Source: Rhodocyclales bacterium | Lineage (GTDB): Bacteria; Pseudomonadota; Gammaproteobacteria; Burkholderiales; Rhodocyclaceae | Direction: 5' to 3' | DNA length: 64,000 nt | Assembly: GCA_028292485.1 (NCBI GenBank) | Contig: JAQGMG010000015.1 | Coordinates: forward strand, 1 to 64,000 | Part shown: one piece after another, positions 4,296-21,394 of the stretch | Layout: each line of letters opens with the position of its first letter | How positions within the stretch are numbered: the first letter of the stretch is position 1 | Notes under the pieces: model-generated | Told to the model about the DNA's origin: nothing | The model's database searches: none | Seen by the model: only the letters and a program-made list of their open reading frames with translations | Position numbers and translations under genes: made by a program

Positions 4296-4380
4296 ACCGT
4301 CATTCCCGCGAAAGCGGGAATCCACTCAGTGGCACAGACCTCACGTAGAAGTGGATTCCCGCTTTCGCGGGAATGACGGT
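4296..4380 (+). repeat. Paired dRS3-like inverted repeat, copy 1
   Basis: Two ATTCCC-GCGAAAGC-GGGAAT units in opposite orientation (ACCGTCATTCCCGCG... and ...CGCGGGAATGACGGT) enclose a spacer of about 30 bases. The unit matches the neisserial dRS3 consensus ATTCCC-N8-GGGAAT. The element starts 16 bases after the lpdA stop. Its spacer CAGTGGCACAGACCTCACGTAGA is nearly the same as that of copy 4 (38663-38743). Confidence 0.9.
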
Positions 4381-5468: not shown

Positions 5469-5475
5469 GAACCCC

Positions 5476-6384
5476 ATGCGCAGCAATTCAGAAAACTCTT
5501 CGGAAAACGCCATGCGTGTTGTGACATTCCCCGGCCTCGGTGCAGCGTATCCACAGATGCTTGAAAAGTATCTCGCAGCCTATCCAGAAGACAGCGCACT
5601 CGTGCAAGGCTGGCGTGCACGTACCGAACTGGTCGAAGGCTCTGCCGAGTTCATGGCCGAGCTGCATGCCCAGGCCGAGATTCACGCGCTCAATCTGCTG
5701 TGGTGGCGCCGCGAAGGTGCGGCATTGAAGGTCGACGCGGTATGCGGTCACAGCCTTGGTTACTACGCGGCGCTCGTTGCGGCTGGCGTGATCAACGAAG
5801 AGACTTCATTCGGTCTGCTGATAGCAGTCCTGCACACCCTGTGGCCCGCCTTCACGGACAACACACAACACATCCATGTACTCACCACGCGGCATGCGAC
5901 GAATCTCGCTGCGCTCGCTGAACGCCATGACATGGAGCTGATCGCAGAAAACAACAGCATGCAGGGTGTGCTGTATGGATCGACCGCAGCGTGGGATTCG
6001 CTGACAAGTGATATGGGCGACGACATGCTGAGAGGTGTGTCGCTACCGACACGGGTGCCCTTCCACTCCGAGGCAGTAAAGCCACTCGCGAAAGCATTGC
6101 ACAGCGCAGTGCAGGCTGTGACCGACGAGCCAGGGGCATGCAGTTTGCCCTTGTGGTCACACATTGATGCAGCGCCTGTCGCAGACGGCGAGCAGGCTTT
6201 GGCATTGGTGGCATCGCAGCCATATCGTGCAGTGCGCTGGGCGCAGCTCGTGAAGACGGTATGCGAACGTGGTGTCAAGGAATTCATCGAGGTCGGCCCC
6301 AACCGTGTGCTGACGCAGATTGCACGCCTGAGCGTGCCGCATGTCGAAGCACGCTTTGTAGACCACCTGCGGCGTCAAGGGTAA
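5476..6384 (+). CDS. FabD-like acyltransferase, probably not malonyl-specific
   Basis: A 302 aa protein of the malonyl-CoA:ACP transacylase fold. The nucleophile motif GHSLGYY (Ser about 93) and a catalytic-type His in VPFHSEAV are present. Two FabD residues differ: the oxyanion-hole FPGQGSQ reads FPGLGAAY, and the arginine that binds the malonyl carboxylate (MRG in E. coli FabD) is replaced by hydrophobic residues in SFGLLIAVLHTLW. I infer transfer or hydrolysis of a non-carboxylated acyl group, plausibly the starter from the oxidoreductase. Start could also be the ATG at 5512. It lies 7 bases after the iorB-like gene and 5 before the iorA-like gene. Confidence 0.75.
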   Translation: MRSNSENSSENAMRVVTFPGLGAAYPQMLEKYLAAYPEDSALVQGWRARTELVEGSAEFMAELHAQAEIHALNLLWWRREGAALKVDAVCGHSLGYYAALVAAGVINEETSFGLLIAVLHTLWPAFTDNTQHIHVLTTRHATNLAALAERHDMELIAENNSMQGVLYGSTAAWDSLTSDMGDDMLRGVSLPTRVPFHSEAVKPLAKALHSAVQAVTDEPGACSLPLWSHIDAAPVADGEQALALVASQPYRAVRWAQLVKTVCERGVKEFIEVGPNRVLTQIARLSVPHVEARFVDHLRRQG

Positions 6385-6389
6385 TCAAG

Positions 6390-8354
6390 ATGACAACGAA
6401 ACAAATGTCCGGCTGCGAAGCTGCTGCACAAGGCGCCTGGGAAGCTGGCGTCAGCGTGGTTTCTTCCTATCCTGGCTCGCCCGTAACCTCGATCGTCGAT
6501 GCGTTTGCGAAGCTCGAAGACGTAAAGGTTACCTGGGCGACCAACGAAAAAGTGGCTCTGGAAATTGCTGCCGGCGTGGCTTACTCCGGCGCACGAGCGC
6601 TGTCGGTAATGAAGCACGTCGGCATGAATGTGGCAGCCGATGCGCTATTCAATCTTGCCTACACCGGTGTGCGTGGCGCGCTGGTCATCATCGTCGGTGA
6701 TGATCCCGGCGCGACGTGTTCGCAGAACGAACAGGACTCGCGCATGCTGGCCTACGCCGCCAATCTGCCGGTGCTGGAGCCTTCGGATTGCCAGGATGCG
6801 CTCGCATTTACGCGCATGGCGTTCGACATCAGCGAGCGCTACGACATACCTGTCATCGTGCGCATGACGACGCAGCTCTGCTACGGCTCACAGAAGGTCG
6901 TGGTGTCGGAGCGCAACGAACACATCATGGAAGGCGGTTTTGCCGGCCCGGTCGAGAAGTTCCTGTTGCTGCCGAACTTCGTACCCAATCGGCATCGTGC
7001 CTTGATCAATGCCAATGCACGCATCGCCATTGGCAGCGAAATAGCTTCCCTTTACGAAGAGCATTGGCCTGAGCATCGCGCCGAGCGCTACCCGATGGGT
7101 CTCATTTGCGCCGGTGCAACTTTCGCCGCAGTGCGCGAGCACTTTGAAGGTCAACTGCCGATCCTGCGCGTGGGTTGCTCCAATCCGCTGGCAGAGAATC
7201 GCATCCTCGCATTTGCAGAGCGCTGCGAAGAGATTGTGGTTACCGAAGAGTGTTCGCATTTTCTCGCCGACCGGATCCGCGCACTGGGCATCAAGGTGCG
7301 TTCGTATGGCGAGATGACGCAGGTCGGCGCCTTTAGCGTGGCGTCGCTGGCCAGCGTCGGTTTGCAACTGTCCGTGCGTCAGAATTCCCATGTGCCGCGC
7401 AGACCCATTTCAAAATTTCCGATTGCATTGGTCGCTGAGTCGCAAGCCGTGCCCGCCCTGTCTGCAGCATTCGAAACAGGAGGCCTGACGCCGCCGAATC
7501 GTCCACCAGGTTTTTGTGCAGGTTGCTCGCACGTCGGCATCTTCGACGTGCTGCGCGATCGCAAGTTGTATGTGGTCGGCGACATCGGTTGCTACACGCT
7601 TGGGGGCGCCAAGCCTTTTGGCGCGCTGCATTCCAACCTGTGCATGGCGGCGAGTATCGGTGTGCTGCAAGGTTACCTGCTGGCGCAGCCGGATCGCGAA
7701 GCGGAGGTACTGGCCGTCATTGGTGACTCGACCTTCTTCCACTCCGGCATTCCCTCATTGATCACGGCCGTGACGCAGGGCCATCGCGGCACCTTGCTGA
7801 TTCTCGACAACGCCGGCACGGCGATGACGGGCTTCCAGCAGACGGCGCTCAACCTGAGCAACGAGCGTTGGCGCGATCTGTTGATGGCACTCGGTGTCAC
7901 CAACTTCGAAGTGATACCCGCTCTGGATATCGGCATCATCAACAAGACGCTCGACGACATGCAACAGCGCGAAGGCTTCAAGGTCATCGTGCTCAAGGGC
8001 GAGTGCGTGCAGTCGCGGCCACGCAAGGGGCCAACCAGCTATCGCTACACGATTATTGAAGATGCATGTACCGCCTGCGGTATCTGCGCGCAACGCACCA
8101 ACTGCCCGAGTTTCTCGCTGACCGAATCACTCAGCGGCGCGCCGAAGATGCAGATCGGCAACGAGTGCATCGGTTGCGGCCTGTGCTCGCAGACCTGCCC
8201 CGAGAACGCCATTATCCCGCGCACCGTCAAGACTGGTTTTACGCCGGTCGACAAGGTGCTCGGCCGCGTGCGCTGGCATCGCATCATCGAATTCATACAT
8301 AGCCGCCCCGCGCTGCGGCGACTGGCATCACGCTTCGAGCGCGAGCTTTTTTGA
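6390..8354 (+). CDS. Indolepyruvate/2-oxoacid:ferredoxin oxidoreductase alpha-like subunit
   Basis: The 654 aa protein matches IorA, which oxidatively decarboxylates arylpyruvates to acyl-CoA on thiamine diphosphate and passes electrons to ferredoxin. Seen in order: the pyrimidine-binding domain (SSYPGSPVTSIVDAF), a central domain, the cofactor domain (GDIGCYTLGG; GDSTFFHSGIPSLI...LDNAGTAMTG) and two C-terminal 4Fe-4S sites (CTACGICAQRTNCP and CIGCGLCSQTCP). All cofactor motifs appear intact. A basic tail of about 45 residues follows the second cluster. The ATG at 6390 is used because the longer frame overlaps the previous gene. Its place between an acyltransferase and an ACP gene is unusual for IorA. 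Confidence 0.88.
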   Translation: MTTKQMSGCEAAAQGAWEAGVSVVSSYPGSPVTSIVDAFAKLEDVKVTWATNEKVALEIAAGVAYSGARALSVMKHVGMNVAADALFNLAYTGVRGALVIIVGDDPGATCSQNEQDSRMLAYAANLPVLEPSDCQDALAFTRMAFDISERYDIPVIVRMTTQLCYGSQKVVVSERNEHIMEGGFAGPVEKFLLLPNFVPNRHRALINANARIAIGSEIASLYEEHWPEHRAERYPMGLICAGATFAAVREHFEGQLPILRVGCSNPLAENRILAFAERCEEIVVTEECSHFLADRIRALGIKVRSYGEMTQVGAFSVASLASVGLQLSVRQNSHVPRRPISKFPIALVAESQAVPALSAAFETGGLTPPNRPPGFCAGCSHVGIFDVLRDRKLYVVGDIGCYTLGGAKPFGALHSNLCMAASIGVLQGYLLAQPDREAEVLAVIGDSTFFHSGIPSLITAVTQGHRGTLLILDNAGTAMTGFQQTALNLSNERWRDLLMALGVTNFEVIPALDIGIINKTLDDMQQREGFKVIVLKGECVQSRPRKGPTSYRYTIIEDACTACGICAQRTNCPSFSLTESLSGAPKMQIGNECIGCGLCSQTCPENAIIPRTVKTGFTPVDKVLGRVRWHRIIEFIHSRPALRRLASRFERELF

Positions 8355-8414
8355 CCTGCGCGAATCTGTATCCAAACGCAATTTTTCAACTGACTTTTTA
8401 AACGGGAGTGAATC

Positions 8415-8690
8415 ATGGAACTGGACCAAATCAAGCAAGAGATCAAGAAGATCTTCGAAGAGCGCCTCAACATCAATGTCGCCAAATTCAACGTTGACGA
8501 CGACGCAGGCCTGTTCGCCGACGACGGCTGGGGCATCGACTCGGTCGATGTCATCGACCTGGTGCTCGGCATCGAGAAGACCTTCGGCATTCGCCTGGCG
8601 CAAGACGCCGAAGTGCAAAAGCATTTCGCCAGCGTCAACACCCTGGCGGCATATCTGAAAACGCGTCAGGCAGAAATGTCTGCCGCCTGA
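8415..8690 (+). CDS. Acyl carrier protein
   Basis: The 91 aa acidic protein has the phosphopantetheine attachment motif GWGIDSVDVIDLV, with Ser in DSV (usually DSL). Helix 2 and the overall length fit a type II ACP. GGGAG precedes the ATG at a good distance. It would carry the growing chain for the ketosynthase encoded 16 bases downstream. The insertion ADDGWG before the motif and the DSV variant show that it is a dedicated ACP rather than the housekeeping AcpP. Confidence 0.92.
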   Translation: MELDQIKQEIKKIFEERLNINVAKFNVDDDAGLFADDGWGIDSVDVIDLVLGIEKTFGIRLAQDAEVQKHFASVNTLAAYLKTRQAEMSAA

Positions 8691-8706
8691 TCGAGAAAGA
8701 ACAGCC

Positions 8707-9918
8707 ATGAAATCGCGTGTCGTCATCACCGGGCTGGGCGTCGTCAGCCCGGTCGGGCAGGGAATCGTGTCCTTCGAGACAGCCTTGCGTTCGGGCATCT
8801 CGGGTATCCGTCAGAACCGCTGGCACGATACGGCAGAGGCCCGTTCGCAACTCGTCGGTCAGATCGATCCCTTCGAGCCGCCAAGCCAGCTCAGCCGTGA
8901 AGAGCGCAAGCACCTTTCACGTGCCGATCAGTACGCGCTGGCAGCAACGATCGAGGCCCTGGCGCACACGCGTTTCGACCCCGCTTCGGTGGGGGGCGAG
9001 CGCGTTGGCGTGGTGCTCGGCAGTGGCGGCGGCGTGGCCAATTCCGAAGCCTATGTCGAGCATGCCTACAAGGAAACTGTGGGCCGTCCCTCGACCTTGC
9101 TGTCGGTGAGCCCGGACAGTGCCGGCGCGGCGATTGCTCGCCACTTCGGCCTGCACGGCCCGCGCAGCAGCATCATGACGGCATGTTCATCGGGCGCCAC
9201 GGCTATCGGCTATGCGGCAGATTTCATCCAGTGCGGGTTTGCCGATGTCATGCTGGCGGGTGGCACCGAATCGTTGTCACATGTCACCTTCAGCGGCTTC
9301 AATGCACTCAAGGCGCTGGCGACGGGGCGCAATCGCCCCTTCGATCTGCGTCGCGACGGCATCGTGCTCGGTGAAGGTGCTGCGATCCTTGTGCTGGAGT
9401 CTTACGAACACGCCATGGCGCGCGGCGCACGCATCCTCGCCGAGCTGGCAGGCTACGGCATCAGCTCCGACGCCAACCACATCACCGCACCTCATCCTGA
9501 AGGCGACGGCATGGCACGTGCCATGGAGCAGGCCATTTCACGAGCCGGTGTGAGTCTGGATGCCATCGGCTACATCAACGCGCACGGCACGGGCACGGCG
9601 CTCAACGACAAGTCGGAGACGATGGCCATTCACCGCGTTTTCGGTGAGCACGCCAAGTCCACGGCGGTGAGCAGCATCAAACCGATGATCGGTCACACGC
9701 TGTCGGCTGCGGGCGCCATCGAATCGGTCGCGACGATCCTCGGTCTGCGCGGCCAGTTCCTGCCGCCGACCCTCAATTACGAAGAGCCCGATCCTGAGTG
9801 CGATCTGGACTATGTGCCGAACGTCGCGCGCAACGCGAGCTTCCAGTACGCCATGAAGAACTCGCTGGCCTTCGGCGGCAACAACACTTCACTGATATTC
9901 AAACGCCATGAGTCTTGA
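8707..9918 (+). CDS. Beta-ketoacyl-ACP synthase (FabF-like, active KS)
   Basis: A 403 aa KAS II/type II PKS ketosynthase that condenses acyl chains with malonyl-ACP. The complete Cys-His-His triad is visible: TACSSG (Cys about 160), NAHGTGT (His about 293) and KPMIGHTLSAAG (His about 330). The C-terminal NSLAFGGNN is also canonical. Its gene overlaps the ketoreductase gene by 11 bases. A second KS-like gene at 11569 has lost the same three residues, so the two probably form a KS/chain-length-factor heterodimer. Confidence 0.93.
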   Translation: MKSRVVITGLGVVSPVGQGIVSFETALRSGISGIRQNRWHDTAEARSQLVGQIDPFEPPSQLSREERKHLSRADQYALAATIEALAHTRFDPASVGGERVGVVLGSGGGVANSEAYVEHAYKETVGRPSTLLSVSPDSAGAAIARHFGLHGPRSSIMTACSSGATAIGYAADFIQCGFADVMLAGGTESLSHVTFSGFNALKALATGRNRPFDLRRDGIVLGEGAAILVLESYEHAMARGARILAELAGYGISSDANHITAPHPEGDGMARAMEQAISRAGVSLDAIGYINAHGTGTALNDKSETMAIHRVFGEHAKSTAVSSIKPMIGHTLSAAGAIESVATILGLRGQFLPPTLNYEEPDPECDLDYVPNVARNASFQYAMKNSLAFGGNNTSLIFKRHES

Positions 9919-10669
9919 TACGTCCATCCAGCTGGAGCGCCCTGTCGCGCTCGTTACCGGCGCCTCACGCGGCATCGGCCGCGCCATCGCATTTTCGCTC
10001 GCTATCAGCGGCTACCGCGTCATCGTCAACTACCGCAGCAATGCCGAGCAGGCCGATTCGCTGTGCAGCGAAATTGCGGCTGCCGGTGGCGAAGCCGTCG
10101 CCCTGCAAGGCGATGTGGCCAAGGCCGCCGATGTCGAAGCGATGAACGCCTGGCTCACTCGCGAAAACATCTACGTCGATGTACTCGTCAACAATGCCGG
10201 CGTCCTGCGCGACAACGTGTTCGTGATGATGAGCGATGCGCAATGGGACGAGGTGATCGACACCAATCTCAAGGGCGTCTTCCTGATGAGCCGCGCCATT
10301 GTGCGCGGCATGATCGAGAAGCGTCGCGGCAAGATCATCAACGTCGTCTCCATCAGTGGCCTCGTCGGCACACCGGCACAAGCCAACTACGCGGCTTCCA
10401 AGGGCGGCGTGATTGCGATGACGCGCTCACTGGCCAAGGAACTCGCACGCTACGGCATCACAGTGAATTGCGTTGCCCCCGGCTTCGTCGAGACCGACAT
10501 GCTCGGCGAGATGAACGAACGCCAGCTTACCGAGATGCTCAAGCTGGTGCCGATGAAGCGCGCAGCGAAGCCGGAAGAGGTTGCCAACCTGGTGCAGTTC
10601 ATTGCATCGGGTGCGTGCTCCTATATGACCGGCCAGACGCTGGTGATCGATGGTGGCCTCAGTGTCTGA
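9908..10669 (+). CDS. 3-oxoacyl-ACP reductase (FabG-like SDR)
   Basis: The 253 aa SDR has the NADPH motif TGASRGIGRAIAF, NNAG, the catalytic Ser in VVSISG and the Tyr-Lys pair in YAASKGG, plus the FabG-like end SYMTGQTLVIDGG. It should reduce the beta-keto group made by the KS. The ATG overlaps the KS stop, which points to translational coupling. A dRS3-like repeat begins about ten bases after its stop. Confidence 0.93.
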   Translation: MSLDTSIQLERPVALVTGASRGIGRAIAFSLAISGYRVIVNYRSNAEQADSLCSEIAAAGGEAVALQGDVAKAADVEAMNAWLTRENIYVDVLVNNAGVLRDNVFVMMSDAQWDEVIDTNLKGVFLMSRAIVRGMIEKRRGKIINVVSISGLVGTPAQANYAASKGGVIAMTRSLAKELARYGITVNCVAPGFVETDMLGEMNERQLTEMLKLVPMKRAAKPEEVANLVQFIASGACSYMTGQTLVIDGGLSV

Positions 10670-11576
10670 ACCTCAAATTCGTCGTTCCCGCGAAAGCGGG
10701 AATCCACTTGTACGCGAAGAAGCAGCGCTTTCCAGTGAAGTGGATTCCCGCTTTCGCGGGAATGACGGGATTGCGGAGAGGTCCCCCAAAGAAATCAGTC
10801 CACACGTCGCCATTACACCGCTTGGCTTCGGCACGCGCCTCACCCTGCGGGTGGGTTGCGTGTTGCTCGAGGACGCAGGTCATCGTGTCCTCGTCGATCC
10901 GGGCCACTTCGATTCGAAGGCCGAGCTGCTGCAAGCCTTGAAGCAACACGCTGGTCTGACGCTGGCCGATATCGACACGGTGTTCTTCACGCACCTGCAT
11001 TTCGATCACTACAACGATCTCGATTTCTCCGAGGTCGGCGAAGTTCTGATCAGCGATGAAGAGATGATTTTCATCGACGCCTCCGCTCAGGCAGGCGAGG
11101 GTGGCGATGAAAGCTATCGTAATTTCCTGAATATGCATTACGAATTCGTGGCGCCGGTGTTCATGCGGCAGTTCATGCGCCTGTATCGCGATGCGCGCTA
11201 CGACTTCGAAAACGTCAGCTTTGCCAGCACGATGCGACGCGTGCGTGCCGGTGAAAACGTCACGCCGAATGTACGCATCGTCGCACTACCGGGTCACTCG
11301 CCGGGCCTGCTGGGACTGGTGTGCGACACGCGCTGGGGCAACACGCTGATTGCTGGCGATGCAGTGCTGTCACGCGAAGACATGTGTAGCCCGGAGGGTG
11401 AGGCGCACCTGATCTGGCATCGCAAGGAACAACTGTTGCAGACGCGCGACGCCTGCATGAAATTCGACGCAATCGTGCCGGGCCACGGGCCGTGGTTCTG
11501 CCCCGCGACGGCACGGGTGCTGGGTGAAAACAATGAAATACGCAATGAAACAGAGTTGGAGATAAATCATGGATGA
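10650..11576 (+). CDS. Metallo-beta-lactamase-fold hydrolase (possible thioesterase)
   Basis: A 308 aa frame. The domain starts at about VAITPLGFGTRLTLRVG and has the zinc motif THLHFDHYND, then LPGHSPGLLG, IAGDAVL and a C-terminal GHGPW. Such enzymes can act as thioesterases or cyclases in polyketide pathways; the role here is inferred. No ATG lies between the repeat at 10680-10768 and the domain. The start must be the ATG at 10650, overlapping the reductase gene and translating the whole repeat (RRSRESGNP...VDSRFRGNDG), or a GTG at 10740 inside it. The stop overlaps the next ATG by eight bases. Confidence 0.85.
   Translation: MVASVSEPQIRRSRESGNPLVREEAALSSEVDSRFRGNDGIAERSPKEISPHVAITPLGFGTRLTLRVGCVLLEDAGHRVLVDPGHFDSKAELLQALKQHAGLTLADIDTVFFTHLHFDHYNDLDFSEVGEVLISDEEMIFIDASAQAGEGGDESYRNFLNMHYEFVAPVFMRQFMRLYRDARYDFENVSFASTMRRVRAGENVTPNVRIVALPGHSPGLLGLVCDTRWGNTLIAGDAVLSREDMCSPEGEAHLIWHRKEQLLQTRDACMKFDAIVPGHGPWFCPATARVLGENNEIRNETELEINHG
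10680..10768 (+). repeat. Paired dRS3-like inverted repeat, copy 2, inside an open frame
   Basis: CGTCGTTCCCGCGAAAGCGGGAATCCACTT and AAGTGGATTCCCGCTTTCGCGGGAATGACGG form the two arms, with a spacer unlike the other copies. The left arm has one change (GTTCCC). The element lies between the reductase stop and the metallo-hydrolase domain and is open in the hydrolase frame. Confidence 0.88.
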
Positions 11577-12753
11577 TGCAGTCGTAGTAACCGGTTTTGG
11601 CATGGTGTCGTCGCTGGGTAGCGACGTGACACAAATCCTGGCGCGCATGGATGCTGGCGAGTACGCCTGCGAGACGCGCGAAGTGCGTGGCCGCGAAGTG
11701 CCTGCGGCGATGGTGCGCGAGTTCGAGGCGACGGACTACATCGCTGAGAAGAAAGTGCGGCGCATGGACAACGTCAATTGCTACGCGATCGCCGCGGCGA
11801 CGCGTGCGCTCGATGATGCAGGCATTGTCGAGGCCGACAAGCCAGGCTGTGGCGTAATCGTCGGCACGGGCTTCGCGGGCTTTGCCAGCGTGGTCGAACA
11901 CCAGGGAGCCTACTTGCGCGATGGCATGCGCATGCTTACCCCCTTCCATTTTCCGAACACGGTTTTCAATGCGACTGCCGGTATGGTCGCCATCGAGCTG
12001 GGTCTCAACGGCCCGAACTCGACTGTCGTCGGTTACGACGTCAGCGGTGAATACGCACTGACCTATGCCTGGATGCTGCTGCGCCAGGGCATGGCCGAGC
12101 GCATCGTCGTGATCGGTGCCGACGATCTGTGTCCTGCGTTGCTTGAAGGCCTGCATGATCTGGGTGTGCCGCGTCGCTCGGAAGCGGCCGGCACTGCACC
12201 GTTCTCGCGTCGCGCCGAAGGCCTGATGCCTTCCGAAGGCTCGGGAGCGCTGGTGCTGGAGCGTGCCGAGAGTGCCGCCCGCCGTGGTGCCCGAGTGCTC
12301 GGCCGTGTTGATTCCATTGGCATGTGGTCGTCGGCAGACAGTCTGTTTGGTTACGGTTCAGCGCAAAAGGCTATTGCTGCGTCGAGCAAGCAGGCCCTGG
12401 TGCGCGCCAGTGTCGGCATGGATGCCGTGAGCTGGGTCTCCTCGTCCGCCAACGGTCAGCGCGAACTCGACGCTGCCGAAGCACAGGCCTGGAGCCAAAG
12501 CCTGGCTGGCTCGCAACGTGTCGTGTCGTTCAAGCGCTTCTTGGGTGACTACGCATCGAGCGGCGTATCGCGCATCGGTCTGGCCCTGCACTGCGCCACG
12601 CGCGGCAAGGTGCCTGGCTTCGCCGTCGAGGATGCGTTGCCGGAGATTGCATCCTGGCTACCCGGCGCTGCGGAATCGCTGGTCGGCAATCGCGTCCTGC
12701 ATCAGGGCGTGGGCATTGGCGGCAGTGCCGTCTCTGTCGTGCTTTCGGTCTGA
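11569..12753 (+). CDS. Ketosynthase-like chain-length-factor protein (catalytically dead KS)
   Basis: The 394 aa protein has the thiolase fold of FabF-type ketosynthases (VVTGFGMVSSLG start, GIGGSAVSVVLSV end). The active-site Cys is replaced (GYDVSGE, Asp about 157), the first His motif reads SSANGQRE instead of NAHGTGT, and the second reads FLGDYASSG instead of IGHTLSAAG. All three catalytic residues are therefore absent. This is the pattern of chain-length factors in type II PKS and of the second KS in aryl polyene clusters. I infer that it pairs with the KS at 8707. Its ATG overlaps the upstream gene. Confidence 0.88.
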   Translation: MDDAVVVTGFGMVSSLGSDVTQILARMDAGEYACETREVRGREVPAAMVREFEATDYIAEKKVRRMDNVNCYAIAAATRALDDAGIVEADKPGCGVIVGTGFAGFASVVEHQGAYLRDGMRMLTPFHFPNTVFNATAGMVAIELGLNGPNSTVVGYDVSGEYALTYAWMLLRQGMAERIVVIGADDLCPALLEGLHDLGVPRRSEAAGTAPFSRRAEGLMPSEGSGALVLERAESAARRGARVLGRVDSIGMWSSADSLFGYGSAQKAIAASSKQALVRASVGMDAVSWVSSSANGQRELDAAEAQAWSQSLAGSQRVVSFKRFLGDYASSGVSRIGLALHCATRGKVPGFAVEDALPEIASWLPGAAESLVGNRVLHQGVGIGGSAVSVVLSV

Positions 12754-12763
12754 GGTAACAATC

Positions 12764-13195
12764 ATGATCCTCGGAATCGACGATATTCGGGCGCGCCTGC
12801 CGCATCGTGACCCCATCCTGCTGCCCAACGAAGTGCGTATCGAGGATGCTGGCCGCGCTGGCTGCGCACGCTTCAACCTGAGCGCCGACATACGTCTGCT
12901 CGGCAAGGAATCGCAGCGCGATCTGTCGCGCGAACTGATGCTCGAATGCGCTGCGCAGACTTTCGGCGTCGTCCTCGGCAGTGTCGACAGCGGCGTGCCG
13001 GCGGAAGACGAGCGTCACCTGTTGCTCGGTTTCAATAATGTGCGCTTCGACATGACGTGGGCCGACCTGGCCGCGCCGTTCAAGGTCGGTGTGCGTGCGC
13101 TGGAATCATCCGGCACGACGCACGTTGCGGCGTTTCGCGTCGATCAGGCGCAGTACTGCGTCGCCGAAGGCACCTTGATGGTCATGAAAGGCTGA
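12764..13195 (+). CDS. Hotdog dehydratase-like subunit A (keeps the Glu)
   Basis: A 143 aa FabZ/FabA-like hotdog protein. It begins RARLPHRDPILLPNEV, close to the FabZ start LPHRYPFLLVDRV, but lacks the GHFPG loop with the catalytic His. It keeps the helix motif RELMLECAAQ, whose Glu (about 61) matches the FabZ catalytic acid. The longer frame from 12518 overlaps the previous gene, so I use the ATG at 12764 with TGAGGTAA upstream. Together with the next gene it may form one heterodimeric 3-hydroxyacyl-ACP dehydratase. Confidence 0.78.
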   Translation: MILGIDDIRARLPHRDPILLPNEVRIEDAGRAGCARFNLSADIRLLGKESQRDLSRELMLECAAQTFGVVLGSVDSGVPAEDERHLLLGFNNVRFDMTWADLAAPFKVGVRALESSGTTHVAAFRVDQAQYCVAEGTLMVMKG

Positions 13196-13196
13196 C

Positions 13197-13553
13197 GTGG
13201 AAAACTTGCCGAATAGCATCCTGGAGAATCCCGTGAAACTGAACAGAGAATTTCTCATCGACGCGAACGAGCCGGTTTTTGCCGGTCACTTCCCGACCTA
13301 TCCTATCCTGCCCGGCGTCATGTTGCTGTCTCTCGCGCGTTCGGCGATGAGCGATCATTTCGGCCGCCCCGTGCAGCTCAGCGAAGTGCGTCGTCAGCGC
13401 TTCTCCAAGCCCGTGCTGCCCGGCATGCGCGTTGCAATCGACCTGCAGCTGACACCCTGCGCAGGCGGTGTCGAAGCCACTGCGCGCTGGACCGATGCAA
13501 GCGATGGTTCGGCATTGGCGCGCGCTGAACTCGTCATGTCTTCGGCAGCATGA
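13197..13553 (+). CDS. Hotdog dehydratase-like subunit B (keeps the His)
   Basis: A hotdog protein of 118 aa from GTG 13197, or 106 aa from GTG 13233, which also has a GGAG site seven bases before it. It contains FAGHFPTYPILPGVMLL, the FabZ His loop (His about 31), but the following helix reads LLSLARSA where FabZ has IIEAMAQA, so the catalytic Glu is Ser. It complements subunit A, which has Glu but no His. The gene starts one base after the stop of subunit A. Confidence 0.78.
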   Translation: MENLPNSILENPVKLNREFLIDANEPVFAGHFPTYPILPGVMLLSLARSAMSDHFGRPVQLSEVRRQRFSKPVLPGMRVAIDLQLTPCAGGVEATARWTDASDGSALARAELVMSSAA

Positions 13554-13574
13554 GCGAGCGGAAAGTTGAGCGAT

Positions 13575-15113
13575 ATGACTAACCGTAAATTCACACGTCG
13601 CGATTGTCTGCGTTTTGCTGTGGGCGGTGCGGTGACGCTGCCTTTCGCGCAAAGCGTGTGGGGCGCGCGTGCGCAAGCCGTGTTACCACAGCTACCGAAG
13701 AGCTTCGACGAGATCGATCACTTCGATGTCACGCATCGCGTGCGCGACGGTTGGCAGGCTTCGATACCGGAGCCGACTTCTTCGTGCGAAGTGGCCATCG
13801 TCGGCGGCGGCATTTCCGCGCTGACCGCTGCGTGGCGGCTTGCCGATCGCAAGGTCATGCTGCTCGAGAAGGAAGGCGAGACCGGCGGCAATTCGCGTGG
13901 CCGCGAATTCGAAGGCTGCCGTTACGCGCTTGGCGCCTTCATGAATCAGGGGCCGATGGCACCTTTCGAAGACTTCTTCCGCGAGCTGAATGTGCCGCTG
14001 GTGGAAGTGCATGGCAATCAGCACGCCTGGGCGGGCAACGGTCGCCTGGTGCGCGATCCGCTCGGTCAGGGGCTCGGCCGTTTGCCCTTTGCCCGCACTG
14101 AGGTCAAGGCGCTGGAGAAGGCAACGCAGTTGCTCGCCAGTTATGCCAAACCAAAGGAAGGAATTTTTTTCCCACGCGCCGACAATACCGAATCCATCCG
14201 CGCGCTCGACCGTAACACCATGTGGGCCGAGTACCAACGGCTTGGCCTCGGTGCGCAAGGTAAACAGTTTTTCGATGCGTTGATCAGCGCCCGCGTCGGC
14301 GATTCAGGAGAAATGCTTTCGGCATGGATGGGCAGCTACCTGCTGTCGTCTGCCGTGGCACGCAACTACACCGCGCCGGGCGGCCACGCAGTGTTCTCGG
14401 AGGTGCTGCGCAGCCGCATTCCGGCCAGCTCGGTGCGCACCAGCTTTACCGTCATTCGTGTCGCCCAGCAATCCAGCGATAAGGTCTGGATTACCGGGGT
14501 GCGCGGAGGAGCAGGTAGTGAGGGCCAGCTTGAAACCATCGAGGCCGACACGGCCATCATGGGCGTGCCCAAGTTCTACTGCATGCACATGGTCGAGGGC
14601 CTGCGTCAGGCGCGTCCGAATGCCTTGACGCAATATACCTATAACGCATACCTCGTGGCGCAAGTGTTCCTGCGCGAGCGCATCGACGTGCCTTTCGAGA
14701 CCTGTGCGCCAAACAATTTCACGCGTTTCATCGTGGCGCCCGACCAGTTGCCTGGCAATGCAAGGCGCGATGGTGGCGGGCTCCTGACCATCTACATTCC
14801 CTACCCGCGCGTTGCAGGCAGGGCAATGCTTTACGCGGCTGACGTCAAGGCGCTTGGCGAGCAGATCGTGCGCGACATCGAGAGTGTCTATCCCGCAGCG
14901 CGCGGCAAGGTCGAGGCCGTCAAGCTGCATCGCTGGGGGCACCCGATGCTGACCACGCGACCCGGCATGGACGATGCGCTGGAAAAGGTGCGCGAGAGTT
15001 TTGGTCGTGTGGCTTTTGCACACAGCGACAGCTTTGGCGTGACCGGGCTTTACTCCGCGATCTGGACCGGCATGGATGCCGAGGCGGAAGCGCGTGCGAT
15101 TTTGATGAGTTGA
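13575..15113 (+). CDS. Tat-exported FAD-dependent amine-oxidase-like oxidoreductase
   Basis: A 512 aa flavoprotein. The N-terminus carries a twin-arginine signal (RKFTRRDCLRFAVGG, then a hydrophobic stretch ending near WGARAQA), so it is probably folded with FAD in the cytoplasm and exported. The FAD site is AIVGGGISALTAAWRL...LLEKEGETGGNSRG, typical of the flavin amine oxidase/phytoene desaturase superfamily; the C-terminal SDSFGVTGLYSAIWTG fits the closing FAD contact. A TTG at 13566 is an alternative start, but the ATG at 13575 has a better-placed GAAAG. It may oxidise or desaturate the cluster product in the periplasm. Confidence 0.82.
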   Translation: MTNRKFTRRDCLRFAVGGAVTLPFAQSVWGARAQAVLPQLPKSFDEIDHFDVTHRVRDGWQASIPEPTSSCEVAIVGGGISALTAAWRLADRKVMLLEKEGETGGNSRGREFEGCRYALGAFMNQGPMAPFEDFFRELNVPLVEVHGNQHAWAGNGRLVRDPLGQGLGRLPFARTEVKALEKATQLLASYAKPKEGIFFPRADNTESIRALDRNTMWAEYQRLGLGAQGKQFFDALISARVGDSGEMLSAWMGSYLLSSAVARNYTAPGGHAVFSEVLRSRIPASSVRTSFTVIRVAQQSSDKVWITGVRGGAGSEGQLETIEADTAIMGVPKFYCMHMVEGLRQARPNALTQYTYNAYLVAQVFLRERIDVPFETCAPNNFTRFIVAPDQLPGNARRDGGGLLTIYIPYPRVAGRAMLYAADVKALGEQIVRDIESVYPAARGKVEAVKLHRWGHPMLTTRPGMDDALEKVRESFGRVAFAHSDSFGVTGLYSAIWTGMDAEAEARAILMS

Positions 15114-15129
15114 TGAAGAACGCTCAATA

Positions 15130-15219
15130 ACCGTCATTCCCGCGAAAGCGGGAATCCACTTCTACGTGATGAGTGAACTTGTGCCGTGAGGTGGATTCCC
15201 GCTTTCGCGGGAATGACGG
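15130..15219 (+). repeat. Paired dRS3-like inverted repeat, copy 3
   Basis: ACCGTCATTCCCGCGAAAGC... and ...GCTTTCGCGGGAATGACGG flank a spacer whose reverse complement shares CACGTAGAAGTGG with copy 1, so this copy is inverted relative to copies 1 and 4. It fills most of the gap between the flavoenzyme and TPR-like genes. A short palindrome GTTGGGCACCCAAC follows at 15224-15237. Confidence 0.88.
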
Positions 15220-15260
15220 AAAAGTTGGGCACCCAACCAAATTTTGTAGTGGAGAAAACC

Positions 15261-15863
15261 ATGAAAGTCCTGAAGAAAACATTTCTCGCCGCCGCGCTGA
15301 TCGTGGCACTGGCGGGCGTTGCGCAAGCAAAGGAACCCTGGGAGTTGAATGCGAAGGAATCACGCGTCGCGCTCGGCCCTGTCACAGCACAACTGGCGAA
15401 AACTCCCGACAACGTCGAAGCACTCAAGACCTCCGGCATCCTGTTGCAGCAGATTGCGCGCAGCGATGCCAAGCGTGAAGACGTGGAGCAGGCCGAACGT
15501 AATCTGAAGCGTGCCAAGGAGCTTGCGCCGGCCGACCAGGAAATCGCTGCATGGCTCGGCAGCGTGACGACGATGAAGGCGCTGTTCGAAACCGATCCCG
15601 GCCGCCAGACCTTGTGGGTCAAGGTCGGCACCAAGCTGATGGATGCGGCCGTGCAAGGCGCGCCCAACAACCTCGTGGTGCGCCTGGTGCGTGCCAACAA
15701 CAGCGTCGAGCTGCCGCCTTTCCTGCGTCGCGCCCGTTTCGGCGTGGAGGATTTCGCCTACTACCTCGATGCCTGCGCCAGGCAGACCTGCTCACCCACA
15801 CAGGTCGAAGAAGCAAAACAGAAACTCAAGCAGGCGCAGCAGCTCGTTGCGCAGGCGCAGTGA
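15261..15863 (+). CDS. Exported TPR-like protein
   Basis: A 200 aa protein with a Sec signal peptide (MKVLKKTFLAAALIVALAGVAQA). The mature part is helical with TPR-like spacing (NVEALKTSGILLQQIARSD, AERNLKRAKELAPADQEIAAWLGS) and ends in a charged coiled stretch EEAKQKLKQAQQLVAQAQ. The ATG at 15261 has TGGAG before it; the longer frame would translate the upstream repeat. It has no enzymatic motif. In this operon it could be a periplasmic scaffold for export. Confidence 0.75.
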   Translation: MKVLKKTFLAAALIVALAGVAQAKEPWELNAKESRVALGPVTAQLAKTPDNVEALKTSGILLQQIARSDAKREDVEQAERNLKRAKELAPADQEIAAWLGSVTTMKALFETDPGRQTLWVKVGTKLMDAAVQGAPNNLVVRLVRANNSVELPPFLRRARFGVEDFAYYLDACARQTCSPTQVEEAKQKLKQAQQLVAQAQ

Positions 15864-15876
15864 GGGCTTACAGACG

Positions 15877-16677
15877 ATGCTGAACTGGTTCAGAAAAACA
15901 CGTACTAGCGCACTGCTCGATCCACGCGATACAGACCTGGCGCCACGCGTGCTGGTGCTCGGTGCCAGCGGCGCGATCGGTTACGCGATTGCCGAGACCT
16001 TTGCGCGGCAGGGTGCCTCGCTGGCCTTGCATGCCAACCGCAACACCAAGGTGCAGGGCAAGTTGATCGAACGTTGTGCCGAGCTGGGTGCCATCGGTTT
16101 GTGCGGCGTGCAGGGCGATCTGGCCGACCCCGAACGTACACGCCAGATCGTCAATGAAGCTGCGACGACGCTGGGTGGCCTGGACGTATTGGTCATTGCT
16201 GTCGGCCATGCCGACGATCAGCCCTTGCTGATGACGGAGCCCGGCGCAATGGAAGCTGCCTTGCAATCCAACCTTGCGCCGGTGGTCAATGCCTGCGAAG
16301 CGTTTCGTGCCTTGCGTGCAGGGTGGATGGGCGGTGCAGTCGTCGTCGTGTCCTCGATAACCGGCCGCGTCGGTCAGCCAATGCGCATGGCATACGGTGC
16401 TTCCAAGGCAGCGGTCGAAGGTTATGTGCGCAGTTTTGCGCGCGAAGTCGCAGCCAGCGGCCTGACGGCCAACTGCGTCGCGCCGCAGGTGATCGAAGGC
16501 GGCCTGGCGGATCTCATGAAGGCACGCGTACGCTCGCTGCTGCTTGCCAACACGCCACTGGCACGAGCCTGCGAGGCTGACGACGTGGCAGGCGCGGCGC
16601 TGTATCTCGCTTCAGAGGGCGCACGGTACGTGACGGGTACTTCGCTGAACGTGACGGGAGGGCTGGTCACATGGTGA
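15877..16677 (+). CDS. SDR oxidoreductase (active-type)
   Basis: A 266 aa short-chain dehydrogenase. It keeps the nucleotide motif GASGAIGYAIAETFA, the Ser in VVVSSITG and the Tyr-Lys pair in YGASKAAVEGYV, with the FabG-like end VTGTSLNVTGG. It could be a second ketoreductase or act on the released product. The frame is overlapped for 7 bases by the next gene, a degenerate SDR, and the two may form a heteromer. Confidence 0.88.
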   Translation: MLNWFRKTRTSALLDPRDTDLAPRVLVLGASGAIGYAIAETFARQGASLALHANRNTKVQGKLIERCAELGAIGLCGVQGDLADPERTRQIVNEAATTLGGLDVLVIAVGHADDQPLLMTEPGAMEAALQSNLAPVVNACEAFRALRAGWMGGAVVVVSSITGRVGQPMRMAYGASKAAVEGYVRSFAREVAASGLTANCVAPQVIEGGLADLMKARVRSLLLANTPLARACEADDVAGAALYLASEGARYVTGTSLNVTGGLVTW

Positions 16678-17288
16678 GCAATTTATCGACGAATGTCTCG
16701 ATGAATGAATCAGGGGGCGTCTGGCTGCGTGGCGAGATGCCGGACACTCTGAAAGATGCCCTTCAGTCTGCAGGGCTCGCACTAACGGGCAGCGGCGAAT
16801 CCGAAACCTTGCAGGCAATGGTTTACTGCGCACCAATGACGGCAAACGAGGTGGGCGGTCAACATATCGTCGCCCATGTTGCGGCAGTGCTCGAAGATTT
16901 TGCAGCAAGTGCCCGCGTCGCAGCCAAGACGCTGGCAGCAAAGGGCGGCGGTCAGATCGTTGTGGTGTGCGACATCATCGCGCATTGCGGCAGGGCAGGT
17001 CACCCGGCGCGCAGTGCGGCGGATGCGGCACTACTGGGCGCCAGCAAGTGCCTGGCGAAAGAGCTGGGTCGCTACAAGGTGGATGTGAATGTCATCTGTC
17101 ATGGTGCGCAACCCGAGCTGGGTTCGTCACTGGAACTGTCGGGCGCCGAGCGCAAGCTCTTCGACATGATGGGTCTGGGGGCACCGGGCACGCCGGCCAT
17201 GCTAGCCACCAATATCGCGCACCTGGCGCGTGGTGCTCACGGCATGACAGGGCAGGTGATCAATGTGGATAACGGAATGGTGATGTGA
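16671..17288 (+). CDS. Degenerate SDR-like protein
   Basis: A 205 aa protein related to SDRs in its second half (LLGASKCLAKELGRYKVDVNVICHG and GMTGQVINVDNGMVM match the FabG helix and C-terminus). It lacks the N-terminal TGxxxGIG nucleotide motif. The segment aligned with YxxxK carries no Tyr (HPARSAADAALLGASK). It is therefore unlikely to be a working reductase by itself. Its start overlaps the active SDR gene and its stop overlaps the ABC ATPase gene, so it is translated as part of the operon. Confidence 0.75.
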   Translation: MVSNLSTNVSMNESGGVWLRGEMPDTLKDALQSAGLALTGSGESETLQAMVYCAPMTANEVGGQHIVAHVAAVLEDFAASARVAAKTLAAKGGGQIVVVCDIIAHCGRAGHPARSAADAALLGASKCLAKELGRYKVDVNVICHGAQPELGSSLELSGAERKLFDMMGLGAPGTPAMLATNIAHLARGAHGMTGQVINVDNGMVM

Positions 17289-18037
17289 TGAGCATGATCG
17301 AAGCGCGTGGCGTGCATAAGAGTTACCAGATGGGCAGCACCGAGGTGCACGCCTTGCGCGGTGTCGACATCGACGTGGCCGAGGGCGAGTGCGTGTTTCT
17401 TGGTGGCCCGTCGGGCAGCGGCAAGTCGACCTTGCTGCATCTGGTAGGGGGTCTGGATCGTGTATCGGCAGGCTCGGTGAAGATTCGCGGCTTCGAAGTC
17501 GGGGCACTGCATGGCAAGACCAATGACGCAGAACTCGCCGATTTTCGTTGCCGCAATATCGGCTTCGTCTTCCAGAGTTTCAATCTGCTGCCGGTACTGA
17601 CGGTGGCGGAGAACGTGGAATATCCGCTGATGCTCGCCGGTGCTTCCGACAAGGCCAGGCGCGTTACGCGCATGCTCGAAGAAGTCGGCCTTGCCGAACT
17701 TGCGAAGCATTTCCCCAACGAACTTTCTGGCGGCCAGCGTCAGCGTGTAGCGATTGCACGTGCGCTGGTGCATCAGCCATCGCTGCTGATCGCCGACGAG
17801 CCGACTGCCAATCTCGATTCGCAGACAGGTGATCGCGTCATCGAGCTGATGCTGGCGCTGTCGCGCAAGCAGGGCTCATCGGTCGTGATCTGCACACACG
17901 ACCCGGCCTTGCTGGCACGTGCGCCACGCCGTGTGCTGCTGCGCGATGGTTGCATCGAAAGTGACGAAACGATCGAGAGCAATCGGACGATCAGGACAGA
18001 GAGCCACGCCAGCGCCGCTGCCGCTGTGGCTGCATGA
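17288..18037 (+). CDS. ABC transporter ATP-binding protein (LolD/MacB type)
   Basis: A 249 aa ATPase with Walker A GGPSGSGKST, Q-loop FVFQSFNLLPVLTV, signature LSGGQRQRVAIARAL, Walker B LLIADEPTANLD and switch His in CTHD. These motifs and the length fit the LolD/MacB/FtsE group, which drives FtsX-type permeases rather than classical importers. The ATG overlaps the previous stop (GTGATGTGATG). A GTG at 17285 is possible. The C-terminus has an extra Ser/Thr/Ala-rich tail. Confidence 0.92.
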   Translation: MSMIEARGVHKSYQMGSTEVHALRGVDIDVAEGECVFLGGPSGSGKSTLLHLVGGLDRVSAGSVKIRGFEVGALHGKTNDAELADFRCRNIGFVFQSFNLLPVLTVAENVEYPLMLAGASDKARRVTRMLEEVGLAELAKHFPNELSGGQRQRVAIARALVHQPSLLIADEPTANLDSQTGDRVIELMLALSRKQGSSVVICTHDPALLARAPRRVLLRDGCIESDETIESNRTIRTESHASAAAAVAA

Positions 18038-18071
18038 GAACAGTGATGAAAACGGCAATAAGGACCCTGCG

Positions 18072-19298
18072 ATGTTTGAACTGAAAGTAGGCTGGCGCAA
18101 CATCCTGCGCCACAGGCGGCGGTCGCTGGTGACCCTGCTCGCGGTGGTGACCGGCGTGGTCAGCATCATTCTCTTCGGTGGCTTCGTGCAGGCCAACTAC
18201 GAAGGGCTGCGTGAGTCGGTGATCCGCAGCCAGTATGGTCACTTGCAGGTGTACCAGGAAGGCTATGAAGCGAAGCATCGCAGCACGCCCGAGAAGGTGC
18301 GCCTGTCGAAGCAGGAGTCGGAAAAAATCGTCTCCATCATGGAGCGCGACCCGCACTTCATTGCTGCTTCGCGCCGCATCGAATTCACTGGTTTGCTTGG
18401 TAACGAAAAGCAGAGTCAGGCCGCCGTGATCCGTGCGGTCGACCCGGATGCGGAGTCGCTGATCAACTCTGCGCTGACCATCATCGACGGCAACGATCTC
18501 GACTCGAGCGATGCCGAGGGCGTGTTGCTCGGCGAGGGATTGGCGCAATCGCTGAATGCAAAGACAGGTGACTCGCTGACGCTGGTCTCCGCCACGGTTG
18601 GCGGTGCAATGAATGCCGTCGATGTGCGTGTGCAGGGCATCTTCCGCAGCTTTGCCAAGGAGTACGACGACCGCGCCATGATGATGCCATTGTCACAAGC
18701 ACAACGCGTGCTCGGCACCGACGCGGTCGACATGGTCGTGCTGCTCATCGACGACACCTCGAAACTCAAGGGCGTGAAAGCCGCGCTGGGCGCATCGCTC
18801 AAGCAGGCGGGCTTGCATACCGAGATGCAGACCTGGGACCAGTTGGCGAGCTTCTATCACCGCGTGGTCGAGCTCTACGACGGCATCTTCCTGTTCGTCA
18901 TCATCGTCATCGCCGTGGTCGTGCTGTTCGGTATTACCAACACCATGATGATTGCCGTGATGGAGCGCACCGCCGAGATCGGCACGCTGCGCGCCATCGG
19001 TACGCGTCAGACCGGCATCGTCAAGCAGTTCGTGGTGGAAGGGCTGGTGTTGGCTGCACTCAGCAGTGTGGTGGGTGTGCTCATCGGCGTCGCCCTGTCG
19101 CGCGGTATCACGGGTCTCGAGGTCATGATGCCACCGCCGCCTGGCTCATCGCGTGGCTACCCGTTGCGCATCGCGCTGGTGCCTTGGGTGTGGATGGTCA
19201 GTGCGTTCGGTGTGTGGGCAATTGCTGCCCTCGCTACGCTGTTCCCGGCCATCAATGCCTCGCGTAAATCGATCGTCGACGCGCTGCGTCACGTCTAA
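18072..19298 (+). CDS. ABC transporter permease, FtsX/MacB/LolC-type
   Basis: A 408 aa permease. An N-terminal membrane helix follows the basic patch WRNILRHRRRSLVTLLAVV, then a large periplasmic MacB-like domain (about 45-270) and three C-terminal helices (IFLFVIIVIAVVVLFGITNTMM; LVLAALSSVVGVLIGVAL; VWMVSAFGVWAIAALATLF), with the family motif MERTAEIGTLRAIGTR. The ATG at 18072 has AAGGA eight bases upstream; the longer frame reads into the ATPase gene. With the ATPase it should extract a lipid or lipoprotein from the inner membrane. Confidence 0.9.
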   Translation: MFELKVGWRNILRHRRRSLVTLLAVVTGVVSIILFGGFVQANYEGLRESVIRSQYGHLQVYQEGYEAKHRSTPEKVRLSKQESEKIVSIMERDPHFIAASRRIEFTGLLGNEKQSQAAVIRAVDPDAESLINSALTIIDGNDLDSSDAEGVLLGEGLAQSLNAKTGDSLTLVSATVGGAMNAVDVRVQGIFRSFAKEYDDRAMMMPLSQAQRVLGTDAVDMVVLLIDDTSKLKGVKAALGASLKQAGLHTEMQTWDQLASFYHRVVELYDGIFLFVIIVIAVVVLFGITNTMMIAVMERTAEIGTLRAIGTRQTGIVKQFVVEGLVLAALSSVVGVLIGVALSRGITGLEVMMPPPPGSSRGYPLRIALVPWVWMVSAFGVWAIAALATLFPAINASRKSIVDALRHV

Positions 19299-19313
19299 GT
19301 CGGAGAAATGAAT

Positions 19314-20060
19314 ATGTTGAAGATCACTTCCGCATTGCTATGTGCAGTGCTGTCCGTATCGGTGTTCGCTGCCAGCGATGCCGATGACATTCTCGCCAAG
19401 GCTGACGGCTACCGTAATTTCAAGGGCAAGCCCTTCAGTTTCGACCTGCAACTGATCAACAAGGAAGAGGGCGAAGCCGACAAGAGTTTCTCGCTGCGCG
19501 CCGAAGTACAGAATTCGCATCGCTCGCTCGTCACCTACGCCGAGCCCGCTGCAGATCGCGGCAAGGCCCTGCTGATGGATGGCAACAACCTGTGGTTCTC
19601 GTCGCCAGGCACCAGCCGTCCGCTGCGCATCACGCCGCAACAGCGCCTGATTGGCGAAGCCTCCAACGGTGACGTGGCGAGCACGGATTTCACCGGCGAT
19701 TACACGCCCGGCCTGCAAGGCAACGAAACGGTGGATGGCGTGCCATGCCGCAAGCTTGAACTCGTCGCCAAACCCGATACGCTGGCGGCATATGCCAGGC
19801 TGACGCTATGGGTGAAGGAGTCGAACAGCCAGCCGGTGAAGGCGGAGTTCTTCGGCCCGTCCGGCAAGTTGCTCAAGACAGCCTACTACCGCCGCTATGC
19901 CAGCGTGGCGCAAGCCGGTGGCGCACAGCAACTCGTCGAGCTCGAAATCGTCAATGCCATCAACGCCGGCAAACGCACGGTGATGAAGTACGCCAATTTC
20001 TCGCTTGGCGAAATTCCTGATTCGCATTTCAGCACCGCTTACCTGGCACGATTGAGATGA
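19314..20060 (+). CDS. LolA-like outer-membrane lipid/lipoprotein-sorting protein
   Basis: A 248 aa exported protein (signal MLKITSALLCAVLSVSVFA). The family of LolA-like 'outer membrane lipoprotein-sorting' proteins is suggested by the start ADDILAKADGYRNFKGKPFSFDLQL, the pattern LLMDGNNLWFSSPGTSRPLRI, DYTPGLQGNETVDGVPCRKLEL and LTLWVKESNSQPVKAEFF. The ATG at 19314 is preferred over 19308 because GGAG lies eight bases before it. Such proteins are typically next to lipid-exporting permeases, as here. It could carry a hydrophobic product across the periplasm. Confidence 0.82.
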   Translation: MLKITSALLCAVLSVSVFAASDADDILAKADGYRNFKGKPFSFDLQLINKEEGEADKSFSLRAEVQNSHRSLVTYAEPAADRGKALLMDGNNLWFSSPGTSRPLRITPQQRLIGEASNGDVASTDFTGDYTPGLQGNETVDGVPCRKLELVAKPDTLAAYARLTLWVKESNSQPVKAEFFGPSGKLLKTAYYRRYASVAQAGGAQQLVELEIVNAINAGKRTVMKYANFSLGEIPDSHFSTAYLARLR

Positions 20061-21358
20061 GTAAGGCGTCGCTCTGCGTGCTTGCAGCGGGTGTACTTGC
20101 CGTCAGCGCGCAGCCTGTCGGCGCAGCAGAAGGTGGCGATCTGCGCTGGTCGGCCGAAGCCTTCGGGCAGCGCGACGAAGCACGCGAACGTACGCTATTC
20201 AACCCTGACGGCAGCCTGCTCGACGGAGGCCGCAATGTTGCCGGGCTCGCCACACATGGCACAGGCCGTTGGGACTGGTCGACGGTGGCAGCCAAACTCG
20301 ATGGCTGGCTTGAAGTGCGCCATGCGGCAGGCGGCAACGATAGTGTGCGCGGCACCTTGTCGGAAGCTTCGCTAGCCTGGACGCCGCGCGACGGGCATAC
20401 GCTGTCGGGCGGGCTCGGCAGCTTTCGCTGGGGCACAGCTTACATCTGGAATCCATCGAACCCGCTCGGCGACAGCGAGTTGAATAACGCCAGCCGCGCG
20501 CGCAACTATCATCGCGATGGCGATCGCTTCGCCTCCTACGAGGCGGTCGCCGGCAAGACGACTTACACACTGGCAGCCGTTGAGCTGACACAACGCGATG
20601 CCTTGCTGGGCATGCGAAACGATCGCGACCGACAGCAGAACGAACGCTGGCTCGCAGCGCGCGTGCAACAGGTGTTCGACGCCAGCGACGCATCGCTGGT
20701 CTTTGCTTTGCGTGAAAACGAGCGCTTTCTCGGTCTAAGCACTTCGCATACGGTAGGCAACGCGCTCGAGCTGCATGGTGAACTCGGTACGCGCTCGCAA
20801 CGGCGCTTCACGACGTGGCGTTCCATCACAGTCGGCCCGCCGTCGACAGCGCAATTGCCGGTGTGGGATCGCAACGATGATGGCGCACGCCAGAAGTGGA
20901 CGACATCTGCCGTGCTCGGCGGGCAATACACCTGGGAAGACGGCGCCAATCTGATCGTCGAATATCTGCACGACGGCAATGGGCTCAACGACCACGAGTA
21001 CGACGCACTGCGAAATGCGGCCAGTGACGCCAGCAGCTTGCGCACTAACCCGGCGTTTGCCGACGCCGCCAATGGTTTCCTGCTGCAGGCCAATCGCTAC
21101 ACCGGCCGCATGCGTCGCAACTACGCCTTTGTGCGCCTCGCCAAGGATGGGCTGCTGACCAACACCGACGTTCAGACCTTCGTGCGGCGAGGACTGGACG
21201 ACGATTCGTGGGTGTATGGCTGGTTGCTGCGCTGGCAGGCCAGCGAGCATGGCTCATTCGCCTTGAGCGGCGAGCATCTGCGCGGCTCTGCCGATAGCGA
21301 GGCCTTGCTGGTGCCGGTGCGCAATCGTTATCAGGTTTCGTTCAAGTACGATTTTTAA
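20057..21358 (+). CDS. Outer-membrane beta-barrel protein
   Basis: A 433 aa protein with a signal peptide ending near VGAAEG and many alternating amphipathic strands. The last strand RYQVSFKYDF ends in Phe, the outer-membrane assembly signal. Tyr, Trp and Arg are abundant and there are no cysteines in the mature part. I recognise no precise family; barrels of this kind often accompany LolA-like proteins and lipid permeases. The ATG overlaps the upstream stop, so it is coupled to the LolA-like gene and probably acts in the same export path. Confidence 0.75.
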   Translation: MSKASLCVLAAGVLAVSAQPVGAAEGGDLRWSAEAFGQRDEARERTLFNPDGSLLDGGRNVAGLATHGTGRWDWSTVAAKLDGWLEVRHAAGGNDSVRGTLSEASLAWTPRDGHTLSGGLGSFRWGTAYIWNPSNPLGDSELNNASRARNYHRDGDRFASYEAVAGKTTYTLAAVELTQRDALLGMRNDRDRQQNERWLAARVQQVFDASDASLVFALRENERFLGLSTSHTVGNALELHGELGTRSQRRFTTWRSITVGPPSTAQLPVWDRNDDGARQKWTTSAVLGGQYTWEDGANLIVEYLHDGNGLNDHEYDALRNAASDASSLRTNPAFADAANGFLLQANRYTGRMRRNYAFVRLAKDGLLTNTDVQTFVRRGLDDDSWVYGWLLRWQASEHGSFALSGEHLRGSADSEALLVPVRNRYQVSFKYDF

Positions 21359-21394
21359 GGGAATTACATCGTTCCGTTTTTGAAAGGAAGCATC

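Follow-up and report, generated by a model that had tools for sequence, protein, structure and literature searches.

A probable catalytic dyad divided between two adjacent hotdog proteins

Two adjacent genes in the 64,000-nucleotide stretch of DNA analyzed here (the window) very probably encode, as judged from their sequences, a single 3-hydroxyacyl-ACP dehydratase, a heterodimer akin to ApeP:ApeI in which two hotdog subunits share a composite catalytic dyad. Subunit A, ApeP-like in its predicted role, is encoded at positions 12764 to 13195 of the plus strand (143 amino acids; stop codon TGA at 13193 to 13195), and subunit B, ApeI-like in its predicted role, at 13197 to 13553 of the same strand (118 amino acids) in a different reading frame. 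A single base (C) separates the A stop codon from the GTG start codon of B at 13197, and AAAGG lies just 5′ of that GTG; GTG at 13233 is a possible alternative start, with which the gap would be 37 bases. FabZ uses a Glu-His dyad, and dimeric hotdog enzymes form their active sites from both subunits (PMC2698920). Glu61 of A lies in LMLECAAQ, the equivalent of the FabZ Glu helix, and the GHFP loop is absent: in the alignment, the segment opposite FabZ GHFPxxPxxPG is LLGKESQRDLSRE, which contains no His and is followed by LMLE61CAAQ. B has His31 in a FAGHFPTYP loop, and its LLSLARS aligns with IVEAMAQ of FabZ, which places Ser at the Glu position. Coordinates, residues, and the FabZ alignment agree with the earlier note on this DNA, which had described a Glu helix without the GHFP loop in A, FAGHFPTYP with Ser at the Glu position in B, and a one-base spacing between the two genes.

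Both proteins score on FabZ models, B at 44.5 bits (E value of 1.4e-11) and A weakly, at 19.7 bits (E value of 5.8e-4); a Pfam profile search returned no match for A. The pair resembles the FabZ homodimer in its fold and Glu-His dyad, but FabZ carries both residues on each chain, hence two sites per dimer, whereas neither A nor B has His and Glu together in one chain.

Conservation of the divided dyad

One scan of 84,980 genomes of bacteria and archaea for relatives of A yielded three, one in Derxia gummosa DSM 723 (locus L041) and the others in two MAGs, one of Proteobacteria (L042) and one of Arenicella (L043). Their A and B proteins are 34 to 46% identical to those of the window, so that the complementary pattern has been maintained despite considerable divergence. 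Each of the four A proteins retains the Glu and is without the His loop, and each B retains the His, with Ser, Arg, Ala, or Gly at the Glu position. Both residues are retained in the 17 FabZ homologues of the same alignment, and a split preserved in four of four clusters at this level of identity is more than chance. The two genes are separated by 1, 4, or 6 bases or overlap by one base, depending on the cluster. Searches of 369 genomes of the class, 200 of the order, 41 relative genomes, 399 of the phylum, and a further 40 and 74 genomes recovered only the known members of the A family; the remaining matches scored far lower, and those inspected were FabZ. A plasmid collection contained no A homologue. 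The genome of one MAG relative also encodes a FabZ-like hotdog that resembles B (L040, about 1398 to 1595; G303, contig 35), with 38% identity over B residues 21 to 76.

A is strongly diverged and a full FabZ is encoded elsewhere in the genome, on contig 48, as might be expected if A and B were degenerate or structural subunits and the housekeeping FabZ carried out the dehydration. We consider this very improbable, since in four distant clusters with 34 to 46% identity each protein retains exactly the residue missing from its partner, a pattern that simple decay would not preserve. Instead, the complementary loss in four clusters, the adjacent or overlapping genes, and the exact precedent of ApeI:ApeP argue for a heterodimer with a shared dyad, possibly the obligate one that the earlier note had proposed. 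We infer that A and B form an active complex, in which the catalytic His would come from B (H31) and the catalytic Glu from A (E61), paired across the interface between the two hotdogs. Each A:B dimer would then have one working site, and the second, symmetric site, with neither residue, would be dead.

Comparison with known split and paired dehydratases

The earlier note had named aryl polyene clusters and mycobacteria as sources of heterodimeric dehydratases. The first precedent holds in full. ApeI and ApeP are described as a heterodimer with a single active site (PMC8041823), and both proteins are present, as chains A and B, in PDB entry 6QSR, known here from its chain sequences. Homologues were taken from seven genomes that carry aryl polyene genes; all seven ApeP sequences have Glu at the FabZ helix position and no GHFP loop, and all seven ApeI sequences keep the GHF loop and have D, H, S, A, or C, never Glu, at the Glu position. 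Given this same split, the published heterodimer, and 6QSR, A and B reproduce the arrangement of ApeP and ApeI within another kind of cluster: a Glu-only subunit without the GHFP loop is paired with a His-loop subunit without the Glu. The two systems are alike in placing the His loop on one small hotdog (ApeI or B) and the Glu helix on the other (ApeP or A), in their single composite site, which for A:B is a prediction, and in the KS/CLF, KR, ACP, and LolA-like export genes alongside. They differ in that A has no match to the ApeP profile (PF22817) and B falls below the cutoff of the ApeI profile (PF22818; 16.2 versus 28.5 bits). Furthermore, A and B are adjacent, whereas about 5 to 9 kb separate the genes for ApeI and ApeP in the six genomes with both on one contig. 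Aryl polyene clusters also encode an ApeH-type AMP-ligase (acyl-ACP synthetase) and an ApeR-type second active ketosynthase, neither of which was found among the genes at 4767 to 22078 of the window. The mechanism of the predicted split dehydratase is already known in kind, and the cluster that carries it appears to be undescribed in the literature searched. Another small ApeI-like hotdog is encoded in the window genome (L039, 3315 to 3719, minus strand; about 44.3 to 44.7 kb of G000 contig 1); it has Asp at the Glu position (GHFPGRPIVPGALLVDLA) and adjoins an AMP-ligase, a LolA-like protein, and an acyltransferase. No match to ApeP (PF22817) was found anywhere in that genome.

The mycobacterial precedent stands for the heterodimer and fails for the split dyad. 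HadAB is, like the predicted A:B pair, a heterodimeric hotdog 3-hydroxyacyl-ACP dehydratase, but its catalytic His41 and Asp36 are both on HadB (PMC4491049), whereas in the window His is found in B only and Glu in A only. HadAB was therefore ruled out as a precedent for the divided site.

We modeled the pair of the Proteobacteria MAG (L042) in place of the window pair. Since the L042 A and B genes share one frame, they were folded as a single chain through the A stop codon, read as Gly (translation table 25), a modeling device that implies no claim of readthrough. With a shallow seven-row alignment (A7) as input, the linked chain reached a pTM of 0.74 and a mean pLDDT of 75. Hotdog strands and helices were mostly confident in both halves, and the active-site loop of B was of low confidence, with residues 182 to 193 below 50. 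The DH domains of type I PKS/FAS are double hotdogs whose two halves pair to form a single site, one half contributing the His and the other the acid; there the halves belong to one chain, whereas A and B are two proteins. A Foldseek search with the L042 model matched double-hotdog proteins along the chain, at high rmsd (about 5 to 12 Å); the top TM score among the matches listed was for the DH-domain model of 2CF2 (TMq of 0.71). The model would fit an A:B pair of the FabA/FabZ type, whose active site is built from both subunits (PMC2698920).

Origin of the split

In a maximum-likelihood tree of 40 hotdog sequences, the best topology joined B with ApeI (support of 96/94) and A with ApeP (74/75). 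After removal of the active-site columns and the N-terminal part, these groupings had support of 94/87 and 71/44, respectively. The trees favor one origin of the A/B and ApeP/ApeI splits. A separate duplication of a FabZ ancestor, which would make the A/B split independent of that in ApeP/ApeI and which concerns origin rather than function, is the less likely reading given these best trees. It is nonetheless in keeping with the HMM results, by which A is nearest to FabZ and has no score on the ApeP model, and with topology tests that did not reject A grouped with FabZ (p-AU of 0.24, and 0.33 without the active-site columns and N-terminal part) or B grouped with FabZ (p-AU of 0.058 and 0.14, respectively).

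A conserved biosynthesis and export cluster

A and B belong to a set of 19 genes at 4767 to 22078, all on the plus strand, that are strictly collinear in all four clusters; the genes flanking the window cluster are not common to the others. The first conserved gene (4767 to 5468) encodes a beta-like subunit of an indolepyruvate-type 2-oxoacid:ferredoxin oxidoreductase (PF01558; models of the indolepyruvate enzyme's beta subunit score below their cutoffs), and the alpha-like subunit is encoded at 6390 to 8354 (TIGR03336, 471 bits, below the 651-bit equivalog cutoff). Between them lies a FabD/MdcH-type acyltransferase with a GHSLG motif (5545 to 6384). These are followed by an acyl carrier protein with Ser in GIDSVD (8415 to 8690; PF00550), a FabF-type ketosynthase in which alignment identified the Cys (TACSSG) and two His motifs (8707 to 9918; NCBIfam fabF, 441 bits), a FabG-type ketoreductase (9908 to 10669; TIGR01830, 298.1 bits, just above the cutoff of 297.75), and a metallo-beta-lactamase-fold hydrolase, possibly a thioesterase, present in all four clusters (10794 to 11576; PF00753). 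Immediately upstream of A is a chain-length-factor-like ketosynthase homologue (11569 to 12753; PF00109), whose active-site Cys is replaced in an alignment of the four homologues (region GYDVSGE).

Downstream of B are an FAD amine-oxidase-like protein (13566 to 15113; PF01593) with an N-terminal twin-arginine motif, also N-terminal in the relatives, and a conserved protein that appears to carry a signal peptide and has a weak TPR-like match (15261 to 15863; 44 to 58% identity in three of three relatives). An SDR reductase that keeps the YxxxK motif (15880 to 16677) is followed by an SDR paralogue shorter than the SDR model (16671 to 17288), which is without this motif in each of the four clusters and looks inactive. 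The remaining genes encode a LolD-like ABC transporter ATPase (17285 to 18037; PF00005), a LolC/E-like FtsX-type permease (18069 to 19298), a LolA-like outer-membrane lipoprotein-sorting protein (19308 to 20060; PF17131), a putative outer-membrane beta-barrel protein ending in F, with no family match (20057 to 21358), and, as the last conserved gene, a probable lipoprotein with repeat-like helices (21395 to 22078); the latter two are conserved in three of three relatives. In the three paralogue pairs of the cluster (KS/CLF, A/B, and the two SDRs), catalytic residues have been lost from one partner or divided between the two. Start codons were inferred for the acyltransferase, the alpha-like subunit, the metallo-hydrolase, the protein at 15261 to 15863, and the final lipoprotein. 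The intergenic DNA 5′ of the cluster and inside it holds three pairs of REP/REPIN-like palindromes (GTCATTCCCGCGAAAGCGGGAATCCACT; 4296 to 4380, 10671 to 10776, and 15131 to 15219 of the window), which cause false extensions of neighboring open reading frames.

With KS, CLF, KR, and ACP genes adjoining A/B, the cluster encodes together the components of a highly reducing type II PKS, its DH being the predicted A:B pair, which would act within such a PKS/FAS-like cycle. Since no clear enoyl reductase was recognized in the cluster, the expected product would be a polyene or an otherwise unsaturated acyl chain. Hotdog enzymes are functionally diverse, and AmcE, a FabA/FabZ-like hotdog that belongs to a type II PKS-like pathway, acts as a decarboxylase though it keeps the His (PMC10698177); B matches the AmcE model weakly (16 bits). 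An A:B heterodimer that catalyzes another acyl-ACP reaction, such as isomerization, decarboxylation, or thioester hydrolysis, in place of plain dehydration is nevertheless improbable, as the full FabZ-type Glu/His pair is retained across the two chains and the KS and KR of the cluster would need a dehydratase, no other one being recognized in the cluster.

With A:B as this dehydratase, a route can be proposed in which the 2-oxoacid:ferredoxin oxidoreductase would convert a 2-oxoacid into an acyl-CoA starter, the acyltransferase would load the ACP, and KS/CLF, KR, and A:B would build an unsaturated chain. The metallo-hydrolase might then release the chain, and the Lol-type system might carry it to the outer membrane. 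Tentatively, the cluster may represent a class of highly reducing type II PKS that has yet to be described. Primed with 2-oxoacid-derived acyl units through the indolepyruvate-type ferredoxin oxidoreductase, it would make an outer-membrane pigment or lipid and export it by a Lol-type system of its own, and its dehydratase may have been split independently of ApeI/ApeP.

The cluster is known from only four sampled species, which belong to different families of distantly related Pseudomonadota. No members were found in the one other genome of the window genus (92% complete), in the other sampled families of the order, or in the families and orders to which the relatives belong. This patchy distribution suggests that the cluster has spread horizontally. 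No published description of the 19-gene cluster was found in the literature searched, and it is apparently a rare, undescribed cluster for the biosynthesis and export of a lipid or pigment. The division of one dehydratase in the manner of ApeI/ApeP would extend beyond aryl polyene clusters, in sequences that escape the curated ApeI and ApeP profiles. The cluster is rare and self-contained, comprising both biosynthesis and export, and its product could be identified in cultured Derxia gummosa DSM 723.
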